Source: Clostridia bacterium (GTDB lineage Bacteria > Bacillota > DTU025). Taken from it: a stretch of DNA of 40,883 nt. The translations under genes were made by a program, and so were the position numbers. How positions within the stretch are numbered: the first letter of the stretch is position 1; each line of letters starts with the position of its first letter. The stretch is taken from contig JAYFQW010000072.1 in the NCBI GenBank assembly GCA_034926675.1, positions 1-40,883 of the forward strand, read 5' to 3'. Of this stretch, positions 405 to 40,441 are shown one piece after another. The notes beneath the pieces are model-generated. The model saw only the letters and a program-made list of their open reading frames with translations. It made no database searches and was not told the origin of the DNA.

Positions 405-704
405 TCACCGAACTACCTTGTATCCCGCATCCTCAACCGCACGGATGTAGGCATCGACTTCAGCCTGACCAGGCGTGTGGTTGACAGTCGCGGTCTTGGC
501 TCCGAGGTCAACCGCCGCCGACTTCACTCCTGGAAGGCTGGAGAGGGCCTTCTCCACCGCCATTTTGCAGTGACTGCATGTCATTCCTTCAACACGGAGC
601 ACAGTCTGAGCCGAATCCGCGCCGGCAGCGACCGCCGCCCCCGCTGCGTTGGATGGGCCGGTGCTGCCAGTGGCGCCGATCTTCGTCTTTCGGAAACAAG
701 GCAT
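405..704 (-). CDS. copZ: CopZ-like copper chaperone (HMA domain protein)
   Basis: This is a small heavy-metal-associated domain protein of 99 residues that probably carries Cu(I) in the cytoplasm to the neighbouring CopA ATPase. The metal-binding loop GMTCSHC lies at residues 40-46, and the rest of the domain runs to the C-terminus, ending in a typical DAGYKVV segment. Ordinary CopZ proteins have about 68 residues. Here the HMA domain follows a 33-residue Ala/Gly-rich extension that carries an extra Cys at position 3. The ATG at 704 is supported by AAAGGAGA eight bases upstream. It starts 15 bases after the copA stop, so the two genes are surely cotranscribed from the copA promoter. The family assignment is firm, the copper specificity comes from the neighbour, and the role of the extension is unknown. 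Confidence 0.88.
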   Translation of the reverse strand: MPCFRKTKIGATGSTGPSNAAGAAVAAGADSAQTVLRVEGMTCSHCKMAVEKALSSLPGVKSAAVDLGAKTATVNHTPGQAEVDAYIRAVEDAGYKVVR

Positions 705-719
705 AGTATGAGTCTCCTT

Positions 720-3032
720 TCACTTCGCGCCGGATGCGCGAGCTCCGGCGCGTGCTCCAAAACGCTTGAGCCTCAGGGAGTTCGATACAACCGAGACTGA
801 GCTCAACGCCATCGCAGCCCCCGCATACACCGGCGATAGTCTGCCGGAAGCGGCCAGGGGTATTCCTATTGTGTTATAGATGAACGCCCAGAACAGATTC
901 TCTCGAATCACGCGGAGGGTTTGGCGCGAGAGCCTTATCGATCCCGGCAACCGGCTCAGGCCGCCGACTATCGTGATATCGGAGGCTTCCATAGCAACAT
1001 CAGTCCCGCTGCTCATGGCGATTCCAACGTCTGCCGTCGCAAGAGCCGGGGCGTCGTTTATGCCATCGCCAACCATCGCCACCGCCAGGCCCCGCGCCTT
1101 CAGTCTCTCCACCTCCCGGGCCTTGCCCTCGGGCAGCACCTCTGCCAGTACATGGTCGTGAGGTATGCCCACTCTGTCCGCTATTGCCACAGCGGTTCGT
1201 CGATTGTCCCCGGTCACCATGTACACCTGCACTCCTAGGCGTCCGAGCTCACTGATGGCCTCTGGTGATCCGGCCCTTACCTGATCGGCTATTCCGTATG
1301 CCGCGGCGGGCTTTCCATTCACAGCCTGCACAACAGCGGTCTCGCCTCGCTCCTCCATTCGAGCGAGGGAATTCTCGACCGATCCCAGCTCAACCCCTAG
1401 CTCAGTCATGAACCTGCGGGTCCCAACTGCCACCCTCAGCCCGTCCACAGTCGCCTCCACTCCACGTCCGGGCGCCGACCGAAAGCCCGACGGCATCGGG
1501 ATGTCCAATCCACACTGAGACGCTGCATTCACAATCGCCAGTCCCAGTGGATGCTCCGAGCCACGTTCGGCTGAGGCCGCAAGCCTCAGAACGTCTCTCT
1601 CCTCAAACGGAGGGAAGGCCTCATATCCCTGGAGAGATGGCTTTCCTACCGTTATGGTGCCGGTCTTGTCGAGGATGATCGCCTTCACCGAGCTGAGCCT
1701 CTCCAGATGCTCTCCCCCTCGGATCAGAATCCCGAGCTCCGCCCCTCGCCCAGTGGCAACCATGATTCCAGTTGGAGTGGCCAGGCCCAGAGCGCACGGA
1801 CACGCAATCACCAAAACAGCCGTGGCGTTCACCAGGGCTCGAGATACATCATGCTCAACAATATACCAGACGAGAAATGTAAGAACCGCAATCCCCAGCA
1901 CAACAGGGACGAAGTAGGATGAGACGACATCAGCAAGCCTCTGGATCGGCGCCTTGCTGCCCTGCGCATCCTCGACCATCTTGATGATCTGCGAAAGGGC
2001 AGTCTCGCGGCCGACCCGGGTTGCACGCATCTTGAGCATCCCGTGCTGATTCATGGTCGCTCCGGTCAGCCTGTCGCCGGATTGTTTGTCTACCGGAATG
2101 CTCTCGCCTGTGAGCATCGACTCGTCCACTGCGGAGAATCCCTCAATCACCTCGCCGTCCACAGGCACGCGCTCGCCGGGCCTGACAATCAGCATATCCC
2201 CTGCCAGAACCTGATCAACGGGAACCTGCCGCTCTCCGTCGGGAGTGATCAGCGTGGCTACCTTCGGAGAGAGCGCCATGAGCTTGCGGATGGCCTCACT
2301 CGTCCTTCCCTTCGCCGCGTATTCAAGGTTCTTGCCCAGCAGAACCAGGGTTATCACCACAGCTGACGCTTCGTAGTAGACCGGGCCAGGCGTGACGAAT
2401 GTGTGCACGACACTGAGGATGTATGCTGCTCCAGTGCCCAGGGCCACCAGTACATCCATGTTGGCGCCGGCGTGGGCCACTGTACGGACCGCGCCAATGT
2501 AGAAGCGGGAGCCAGATATGAGCACAACAGGAGTTGCCAGAATGAATCCCACCATCGGTTCCATTAGAAACATGAACCTCTCATGCAAGCCGACCAGGTC
2601 CGCGATCATCCCGACCAGCATGGGCAGGCTGAACGCGGCCCCGATGTAGAACAGAAGCCAGTCATTGACAACACGCCTACGCCGTTCCAGAGCCCGCCTG
2701 GCATCCTCGCCCGCGTCCCGAACAAGCTCACGCGCACTGTATCCCGTGTTCTCCACCACTCGCACGATATCCGAAACCTTCAGAACCGTGGGGTCATACT
2801 GCACTCTAGCAGTCTCAGCAGCCAAATTGACAGAGGCGGCCATTACCCCAAGCTCCTTCTGCAGAGCTTTCTCTATTCTAGCCGAGCACGCGGCGCACGT
2901 CATCCCGGTTATGGCCACATCGAGCTGCTTCAACTCGCGTGCAGTCCCTGTGCTGCGTCCACTATCGTCAGATTCACGGCCCTTCGGCCTCACACTGTCC
3001 ACCATGAACACCCCCAGCGGACGTCTGTCCAA
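720..3032 (-). CDS. copA: Copper-exporting P1B-type ATPase CopA
   Basis: This membrane ATPase pumps Cu(I) out of the cytoplasm. Counting from the TTG at 3032 (770 residues), one N-terminal HMA domain carries GMTCAAC (43-49). It is followed by membrane helices, the actuator motif TGES (308-311), the transmembrane metal motif CPC (411-413), the phosphorylation motif DKTGTIT (455-461), SEHPLG (492-497) and the hinge [10 protein letters not shown] (655-664). The last helices carry the YN and MxxSS signatures that mark Cu(I) rather than Zn/Cd pumps. The start is uncertain: the ATG at 3005 has GGGGGTG close upstream, and either start leaves the HMA domain intact. A sigma-A promoter and a CsoR-like operator lie just upstream, and the copZ-like gene follows. 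No regulator gene is adjacent. Confidence 0.95.
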
Positions 3033-3041
3033 CCCGCCCCT

Positions 3042-3056
3042 TACCCACGGGGGGTA
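3042..3056. promoter_or_regulatory. Candidate CsoR-type copper operator
   Basis: The inverted repeat TACCC-N5-GGGTA (TACCCACGGGGGGTA) lies between the copA promoter and the copA start. It resembles the GC-rich pseudo-palindromes bound by the Cu(I) sensor CsoR upstream of copZA in Bacillus. It sits about 10-25 bases downstream of the predicted transcription start, a position suited to repression that copper would relieve. No csoR gene is visible in the window, so the regulator is inferred. Confidence 0.6.
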
Positions 3057-3128: not shown

Positions 3129-3229
3129 CCCAGCGAGATGTGCCTGAGGCATGAGAACTAGCTGATGACATCCGCAATATACTGCAATTGGACATTCGAG
3201 GACCGCAGACAATGATGAGGTGATATCAC

Positions 3230-3985
3230 GTGATGCCCTCTCGCGAGTTCATTGAGATGGCCGAGATGGCCCACGCAGACGAAATACAGGCCGTGGACTT
3301 CTACCGCAGGATGGCCCAGGTCGCACCGACGGACCCCCTGAAGCGGGCGATCCTGCAGATCAGCAGGGATGAGATGAGGCATGCCTGTTTCTTCGGATCC
3401 GTGCTCTCACTCACGCGCACCCCATACGGGATGCCCTGTCCAGGTGGGACGCCCATGCCGATGCCTGTCCCTCAGCCGATGCCCGGACCCATGCTTGGAT
3501 CGATGTGTGAACCGGTCATGCCTGCTCCCATTGAGCCATACACTGGAATGCCCTGCCCTGGATGGCCAGGACAGATAGCCCCGGAACCAGTATGTCCTGC
3601 GCCAGTGTATCCCGCGCCAGTATGTCCCGCGCCAGTGTATCCCGCGCCAGTGTATCCAAGTCCGACCTGTCCAGGCCTAACCTATCCGAACCCTGTCTAC
3701 CCAGACCCAACATGCCCAGGGCCCGTGTATCCCGAGCCGGCGCCTGTAACGCCGATCTATCCATCCCCATGCTACCCGGGGCCCATGTACCCAGAGCCGG
3801 TGTATCCTCCGCTGGCGGGCCCGTGCCCGCCGTATTACCCGGAACCACAGCCAATGCCGCCCATGCAGCCGTCGCCATGTCCTGGTCCGATCCCGCCGGT
3901 GCCGGAGTTCCCTGAACCTCCTCCGCAACCGGAGCCTCCGAAAAAACCGTGCGCAGGATGCGGGCCTGGTGAAGCAGAGTCGTAG
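3230..3985 (+). CDS. Ferritin-like half-domain fused to P-x-(C/Y)-P-x pentapeptide repeats
   Basis: I do not recognise this protein as a named family. Residues 7-62 resemble two helices of a ferritin-like fold: E18 in DEIQAVDFY and an E-x-x-H pair, E48/H51, in DEMRHA. These are the kinds of residues that bind a di-iron or similar centre, but a full four-helix bundle would need a dimer. From about residue 64 to the end the chain is Pro-rich. Residues 120-194 form fifteen near-perfect pentapeptides, P-x-(C or Y)-P-x, such as PVCPA and PVYPE, and a CxxC pair (CAGC) lies near the C-terminus. There is no signal peptide or membrane segment. GTG 3230 or ATG 3233 follows AGGTGA (3218-3223). It diverges from copA. 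A metal-binding, coat-like or surface-layer role is possible but is only inference. Confidence 0.75.
   Translation: MMPSREFIEMAEMAHADEIQAVDFYRRMAQVAPTDPLKRAILQISRDEMRHACFFGSVLSLTRTPYGMPCPGGTPMPMPVPQPMPGPMLGSMCEPVMPAPIEPYTGMPCPGWPGQIAPEPVCPAPVYPAPVCPAPVYPAPVYPSPTCPGLTYPNPVYPDPTCPGPVYPEPAPVTPIYPSPCYPGPMYPEPVYPPLAGPCPPYYPEPQPMPPMQPSPCPGPIPPVPEFPEPPPQPEPPKKPCAGCGPGEAES
3587..3811 (+). repeat. 15-bp minisatellite encoding pentapeptides
   Basis: Fifteen consecutive 15-bp units encode the P-x-(C/Y)-P-x array. The first five units (for example CCAGTGTATCCCGCG) are nearly identical at DNA level and later ones have diverged. This suggests recent expansion by slippage or recombination at the 5' end of the array. 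Confidence 0.85.
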
Positions 3986-4076: not shown

Positions 4077-4721
4077 TCAATTGCCGAACCCGAATATGTC
4101 CAGGTTTCCGATGGCAGCCTGGTTGCCGATGAACGACCCGATGGCCGCGCCTGCGACCACATCCGATGGCCAATGCATCTGGAGCTGAACCCGGCTCCAT
4201 CCCACTGCAGCCGCAAGTCCATAAAAGGCCGGCGCGAGCCATGGAAAACGCTCCGAAAGCACCGCTGCCATGGAAAACGCGTTCGCGGTGTGCCCGGAGG
4301 GCATTGAGTGGTAATCGTCGGACAATGTGAGGCCTGTGTACCGGCCCTGTTCCGCATGGAGGTAGGGCCGCGCACGCCCGCATACGACCTTCAGCACACC
4401 AACAACGGCAGCTGTTCCAGCAGTGGCGTTCAGGAGCGCCTCGCCTGTGGGAGGATCGATAACCAGAAAGGCTCCACTGAGAGCAATCGCCGTGCCTGCC
4501 CCACCCAGATTCGTCACGGCCTTTGCAATCCTAGTCCAGTCCTGCGCTTCCGCTGAGGCCTCTGGCGATGGGCTGCAGCTGGCCTCTCCCAGCATGGCAG
4601 TTGAAACCAGCTCACAAGAAAGAGCAGCCGTGTCGAACCCAACTGAGACTGCCTGTACTGGGATTCTGCAGACCATCCCGACCATGATCGCCGTAACTGC
4701 TACTGCCAAGGCCCTGCGCAC
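4077..4721 (-). CDS. PAP2-family membrane phosphatase
   Basis: This 214-residue protein belongs to the PAP2 (type 2 phosphatidic acid phosphatase) superfamily. The three catalytic motifs are intact: K111-x6-R118-P119, PSGH (141-144), and S176-R177-x5-H183-x3-D187. There is a hydrophobic N-terminus (1-25), a further hydrophobic segment around 73-88, and others between and after the motifs, so the active site should face the outside of the cytoplasmic membrane. Possible substrates are undecaprenyl pyrophosphate, phosphatidylglycerol phosphate or, in a diderm, a lipid A-type phosphate. The sequence cannot decide between them. The gene starts 14 bases after birA and ends the hut-fol run. The long loop at 26-65 contains several cysteines. 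Confidence 0.87.
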   Translation of the reverse strand: MRRALAVAVTAIMVGMVCRIPVQAVSVGFDTAALSCELVSTAMLGEASCSPSPEASAEAQDWTRIAKAVTNLGGAGTAIALSGAFLVIDPPTGEALLNATAGTAAVVGVLKVVCGRARPYLHAEQGRYTGLTLSDDYHSMPSGHTANAFSMAAVLSERFPWLAPAFYGLAAAVGWSRVQLQMHWPSDVVAGAAIGSFIGNQAAIGNLDIFGFGN

Positions 4722-39407: not shown

Positions 39408-39453
39408 TTCCCAGAGCGTGTTCCCAGAACACATTCCCAGAACACATTCCCAG
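39408..39453. repeat. 13-bp tandem repeat TTCCCAGAACACA
   Basis: About 3.5 units lie head to tail: one diverged copy TTCCCAGAGCGTG, two exact TTCCCAGAACACA copies and a partial TTCCCAG. It sits about 100 bases upstream of the rhomboid start, just before its predicted promoter. It could be slippage DNA or iterated regulator sites. Confidence 0.8.
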
Positions 39454-40402: not shown

Positions 40403-40441
40403 CGTGCCCGTGAGCCGTGCCCGTGAGCCGTGCCCGTGAGG
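40403..40441. repeat. 13-bp tandem repeat CGTGCCCGTGAGC
   Basis: Three head-to-tail 13-bp units, two exact and one ending GAGG, lead into the first 147-bp repeat. The second copy at 40658-40683 has only two units, the last one diverged. Copy number therefore differs between the two repeats. Confidence 0.75.

Follow-up and report, generated by a model that had tools for sequence, protein, structure and literature searches.

What kind of protein joins half of a ferritin-like bundle to a long proline-rich tail, and what should be made of its position beside copper efflux genes? The gene that raises these questions lies at 3230–3985 on the plus strand of the 40,883-nucleotide stretch of Clostridia bacterium DNA analysed here (the window), and its translation is 251 amino acids long. 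The start codon is a GTG, preceded by the ribosome site GAGGTGAT, and an ATG directly after it at 3233 is a possible alternative start; the gene is present in a single copy in its own genome. A chance open reading frame is ruled out by the existence of orthologues, by the conservation of the start and ribosome site, and by dN values well below dS over the half-ferritin domain in every orthologue pair with a computable dS. The first helix starts at residue 5 and leaves no room for a signal peptide, so synthesis of the product is cytoplasmic. An Rfam scan of the whole window found no riboswitch or known RNA upstream of the gene.

A search of 101 genomes yielded full-length orthologues in G001–G005 and G008; the full-length protein as query gave no match against the contigs, and matches were obtained with an alignment of the half-ferritin domain. 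Counting its own genome, the orthologous set has seven members, drawn from six genera within a single small class of Bacillota and corresponding to 7 of the 12 genomes sampled from that class, and the half-ferritin domains of the others are 45–70% identical to that of the window protein. No half-ferritin-tail gene was found in G006 or G007, and this absence may reflect an assembly gap, because copA too is missing from both of these fragmented assemblies, and folP is on a separate contig in G006. Since most of the genomes compared were assembled from metagenomes, little weight can be placed on any single absence. An initial sequence-only reading knew of no family with this design and proposed a search for the same domain pair in other genomes. 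All seven orthologues carry a half-ferritin together with a proline-rich tail, a combination ending in a CxxC motif that is absent from the family libraries searched, and our literature searches found nothing on ferritin-like, spore-coat and proline-rich combinations. The fusion is real and conserved, but its half-ferritin part is of a known kind, EncFtn.

The half-ferritin domain and its candidate metal ligands

The domain comprises residues 1–62 (3230–3415, plus strand), for which AlphaFold (AF2) predicts, as a single chain, a two-helix hairpin with helices at residues 5–30 and 35–62 (pLDDT 93.7). With the isolated domain as query, PF02915 (Rubrerythrin) is the only Pfam model above its cut-off (E = 3.1e-5, 24.8 against 22.8 bits), with only half of the bundle covered. 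The EncFtn-like model PF22277 (E = 3.5e-4, 20.8 against 27 bits) and the NCBIfam model TIGR04535 for encapsulin-associated ferritin (a weak match, 21.8 against 125 bits) both fall below theirs. When a profile of all seven domains was compared with the PDB, the first matches were the Pyrococcus furiosus EncFtn (5n5e, E = 3.5e-5) and the P. furiosus encapsulin fusion (2e0z). Foldseek with the predicted domain also ranks 5n5e first (TMq 0.84) and places EncFtn ahead of rubrerythrin, the eight best rows all being EncFtn-family chains. A 62-residue hairpin holds little information, which accounts for the weak Foldseek E-values (best 0.014), and the call is carried by the probability and the TM-scores.

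In Rhodospirillum rubrum EncFtn the di-iron site is built from Glu32, Tyr39, Glu62 and His65 contributed by two chains (PMC5012862). The candidate metal ligands of the window protein, E18, Y25, E48 and H51, have identical spacing (7, 23 and 3) and are invariant in all seven orthologues, and E18, Y25 and H51 are still invariant across a wider set of 14 half-ferritins of the phylum. The sequence-only reading had described a ferritin-like two-helix N-terminus with E and E-x-x-H residues, and E18 and E48-x-x-H51 are indeed present, in agreement with Pfam, the ligand alignment and AF2. The EncFtn ligands, the PDB profile match and Foldseek strongly support its proposal that this piece suits a metal centre at a dimer interface. 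We are confident in assigning the domain as an EncFtn-type half-ferritin with its metal site, and we regard the predicted ferroxidase-type chemistry at a dimer interface as probable.

EncFtn, a ferroxidase, is unable to mineralise iron alone and has been studied as the cargo of a shell (PMC5012862). A role as encapsulin cargo is ruled out here, as no shell gene (PF04454) is present in any of the ten genomes tested, including its own, with positive controls. There is also no C-terminal encapsulin targeting peptide, and the protein ends in CAGCGPGEAES with no motif resembling SLGIGSLK.

The proline-rich tail

The tail (3425–3952, plus strand) is 38% proline and rich in Cys, Tyr and Met, and is modelled by AF2 with neither helix nor strand and with pLDDT mostly 38–79. 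The tails of the seven orthologues are 134–186 residues long with 29–43% proline, and all are predicted to be disordered. Methionine makes up 6–12% and cysteine up to 8% of these tails, although cysteine accounts for only 1–3% in G003, G004 and G008; the x-P-x-P runs of the relatives are richer in Met in G001, G002 and G005, and richer in Ala, Thr and Gly in G003 and G004.

Within the window tail is a [CY]-P-x-P-x pentapeptide array (3593–3817, plus strand), earlier counted as 15 regular units with alternating Cys and Tyr. The regular period of five is real, with [CY]P dipeptides in exact period for a run of 10, a length that never exceeded 4 when this tail was shuffled 20,000 times, but the array consists of 12 matching units with one interruption (nine contiguous units, the interruption, then three, plus partials), and in the order C Y C Y Y C Y Y C Y - Y Y Y strict alternation is limited to the first four. 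At the DNA level the first units are almost the same, with a tandem repeat at 3587–3657 (~71 bp, 15/30-bp periodicity, with a 97% match for the 30-bp unit), so that the first part of the array arose by tandem expansion in recent times; in later units the Y/C-P-x-P residues are retained with different codons. Two further short tandem arrays, with perfect 13-bp units, are located elsewhere in the window at 39421–39453 and 40403–40440. In the six other orthologues the longest period-5 [CY]P run is 1–2, and the Cys/Tyr array is confined to the window's species, so the function of the family cannot rest on it. Homologues lacking both the E/ExxH residues and the repeats had been named as evidence against the proposed design; the ligands are kept in all seven, but the Cys/Tyr repeats are missing from six.

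Two conserved features were missed in that first reading, the promoter described below and a C-terminal CxxC with its lead-in. The CxxC, within KKPCAGCGP (3944–3967, plus strand), is inside six of the orthologous ORFs and just beyond an in-frame TAG in the seventh (G004). Its variants in the alignment are PCAGC, PCLGC, PCFGC and SCPSC, and the orthologues share a P-E-x-P-E-P lead-in (P-E-P motif, consensus PVPEFPEPPP). The G004 stop codon (L045, around 534, the minus strand being the coding strand) directly precedes NCPTCGG, and may be genuine or the product of misassembly.

With one CxxC in each chain, a dimer would have four thiolates, and the Rubrerythrin model is the sole one above cut-off; on this basis a vegetative defence against iron and peroxide could be envisaged, in which the half-ferritin dimer is a peroxidase centre and two CxxC motifs form one rubredoxin-like Cys4 electron-transfer site. 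We consider this unlikely: Pfam finds no rubredoxin domain, an isolated CxxC at the chain terminus has no rubredoxin fold, the long proline-rich spacer is unlike rubrerythrin, and the fold matches favour EncFtn. Alternatively, the protein could be mainly structural, with the half-ferritin serving as an oligomerisation tag and the tail as the working part, a cross-linked polymer of the spore coat or of an intracellular gel. The rapid change of tail sequence with retention of composition fits such a role, as do the unrelated low-complexity segments (GGYPA, PGYxxx, DDKKxxWWDE, proline linkers) borne by other Bacillota half-ferritins; however, a plain tag would have no need of four metal ligands that are invariant across the class, and this explanation too seems improbable.

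Gene neighbourhood, promoter and sporulation

The gene was noted at the outset to diverge from a copper efflux operon, and the opposite strand does carry Pfam-assigned genes for a CopA-type copper P-type ATPase (720–3032, minus strand; E1-E2 ATPase and HMA domains) and a CopZ-type HMA copper chaperone (405–704, minus strand). Downstream is a convergent PAP2 phosphatase gene (4077–4721, minus strand), which like copA is syntenic in relatives. The order of divergent copZ/copA, the half-ferritin gene and convergent PAP2-birA-folB-folP-FTCD-hutI is kept in G001, G002, G003, G005 and G008, and in part in G004, where the gene is divergent from copZ alone. In G008 an insertion of IS-like ORFs (L041:5612-7198), resembling an IS200/IS605 element of the TnpA/TnpB type, separates copA from the half-ferritin gene and leaves the gene's own promoter intact. 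The adjacency to copA says little about function because it is part of this longer syntenic block; it is weak evidence for a copper role, and we have down-weighted membership of a copper operon.

CsoR operators are G-tract pseudo-palindromes (PMC3902906), and a TACCC-N5-GGGTA pseudo-palindrome resembling them, unique in the window, adjoins copA at 3042–3056. It was not found in the upstream regions of the relatives, and it belongs to copA rather than to the half-ferritin gene; no copper-repressor operator was found at the gene's own promoter, from which this site is about 100 nt away. These observations bear on a role in copper handling, in which the protein would be a cytoplasmic Cu(I) buffer, co-regulated with the divergent copA, whose Cys/Met-rich tail and CxxC exchange copper with CopZ and CopA. 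The divergent arrangement in the assembled carriers, the Met and Cys content of the tails and the conserved CxxC are compatible with it. However, the shared order extends well past the copper genes, the G008 insertion parts copA from the gene, the CsoR-like site is distant and not conserved, a sister family (f3; G009 and G010) has copA without the half-ferritin-tail gene, cysteine is scarce in three of the tails, and EncFtn-type ligands are mostly oxygen and poor for Cu(I). We therefore regard copper handling as quite improbable; of the earlier copper link, the divergent position is real and the functional connection weak.

Alignment of the upstream regions reveals a promoter-like element, AAC-N16-CAATATACTG, at 3155–3184 (plus strand), 45 nt before the start codon, and CAATATACTG is identical, 16 nt after AAC, in all seven orthologues. 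The full element has only this one full match in its own genome. With two mismatches allowed there are 11 sites in the genome compared with 4 in a reversed control, none of them convincing besides the gene's own, and a wider promoter regulon was rejected. A 13-bp palindrome before the -35 seemed conserved by eye, but only 3–5 of its 6 pairs are retained and we make no claim for it. In the same genomes, most regions upstream of dpaA contain AC-N16/17-CATAnnnT, a sigma-K-like arrangement, which the AAC-N17-AATAnnnT of the half-ferritin gene resembles. As a test for a sigma-E/K promoter, AAC-N17-AATATACT comes near this pattern but does not match it, the first base of the -10 being A in all seven rather than the C of the sigma-K class.

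SpoIVA, SASP and a strong DpaA match are present in all seven carriers, and sigma-K is above cut-off in six of them, whereas the two sister-family genomes have no SpoIVA, no SASP and no half-ferritin-tail gene. In that clade copA and folP are on different contigs, so the local block may not have been kept there. The link to spores rests on this one clade without spore genes, and no spore gene adjoins the half-ferritin gene. The distribution of the gene thus fits the earlier idea of a coat protein, to the extent that all carriers have spore genes and one non-carrier clade does not, while location in the spore would follow only by inference; a spore role is possible, and we put it forward tentatively.

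Proposed mechanism and relation to known systems

The fold class, the conservation of four ligands, the conserved tail composition with its CxxC, the lack of an encapsulin and the co-occurrence with spore genes lead us to favour, at somewhat less than even confidence, a cage-less relative of EncFtn in sporulating cells, assembled by metal and bearing Cys/Met/Tyr tails for tethering, cross-linking or metal binding. Two or more chains would join on binding Fe(II) or a similar metal at E18, Y25, E48 and H51 of both, giving a full four-helix bundle that contains a di-metal centre of the ferroxidase type. The long disordered tails would project as bristles, replacing the encapsulin-targeting tail of EncFtn, and may tether or cross-link particles through disulphides and possibly Tyr, a step that we judge about as plausible as the scheme as a whole; the CxxC pairs may hold additional soft metal. 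From the distribution of the gene, we propose that sporulating cells would produce the protein and deposit it in or around the spore, where it would be a metal- or redox-active structural component. A more speculative extension, which we consider rather doubtful, is a cage-free iron-handling particle in which the protein's own proline brush of Cys, Met and Tyr, ending in CxxC, replaces the shell to give a condensate or spore layer that depends on metal and is cross-linked by redox chemistry.

In a wider scan, several Bacillota families proved to contain half-ferritins with low-complexity appendages of various kinds, and the neighbours of these tail-bearing genes have no shared spore context. 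At the C-terminus of a tandem half-ferritin from another family (L128 / L142:3421-4167) is a hexapeptide array, PGYxxx, that contains Tyr and some Cys and seems to parallel the window tail; another tandem half-ferritin (L018 / L143:3711-4304) has a GGYPA repeat at its N-terminus. In four genomes of family f51 a proline-rich linker joins two half-ferritins (L123, L124, L127 and L129), and elsewhere a charged Trp-rich repeat region (DDKKxxWWDE) is found ahead of the half-ferritin (L116 / L146:3817-4512). Proteins of ~255 residues (L038:5995-6753 and L039:5974-6747) begin with the same half-ferritin and continue with more ExxH-bearing segments.

These stand-alone and tandem half-ferritins share the E...Y...E-x-x-H core with the window protein but are single domains of 64–76 residues, tandem halves, or carriers of other low-complexity segments, and no tail of the window type is present among the matches read from 398 sampled genomes. 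Rubrerythrin (PF02915) shares with the window protein the ferritin-like ExxH metal motif, the Pfam domain, which the window protein matches above cut-off, and C-terminal CxxC motifs, but the window protein is one half bundle whose single CxxC terminates a disordered tail and is not in a rubredoxin domain with two. The short EncFtn-like protein (s-FLP) of Nitrosomonas europaea (NE0167, PDB 3k6c) is the third-ranked Foldseek match, and s-FLPs are likewise half-ferritins with no recognised targeting peptide, although they have ~10 disordered C-terminal residues compared with ~185 in the window protein (PMC11202242). EncFtn itself (R. rubrum Rru_A0973, and the fusion form P. furiosus PFC_05175) is the best PDB match by sequence and fold and has the same two-helix architecture and ligand spacing; it differs from the window protein in its shell and targeting peptide, in lacking the long proline-rich tail with terminal CxxC, and in that the window domain scores below the EncFtn-like and TIGR04535 cut-offs. 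We suggest that the core works like EncFtn and, because neither shell nor targeting peptide was found, we do not file the protein as an EncFtn member. If it is deposited in spores, metal oxidation would be linked to the assembly of a spore layer. A class-wide, shell-less lineage that has kept the ferroxidase site and exchanged the targeting peptide for a conserved proline-rich CxxC tail provides a natural test of an uncaged half-ferritin.
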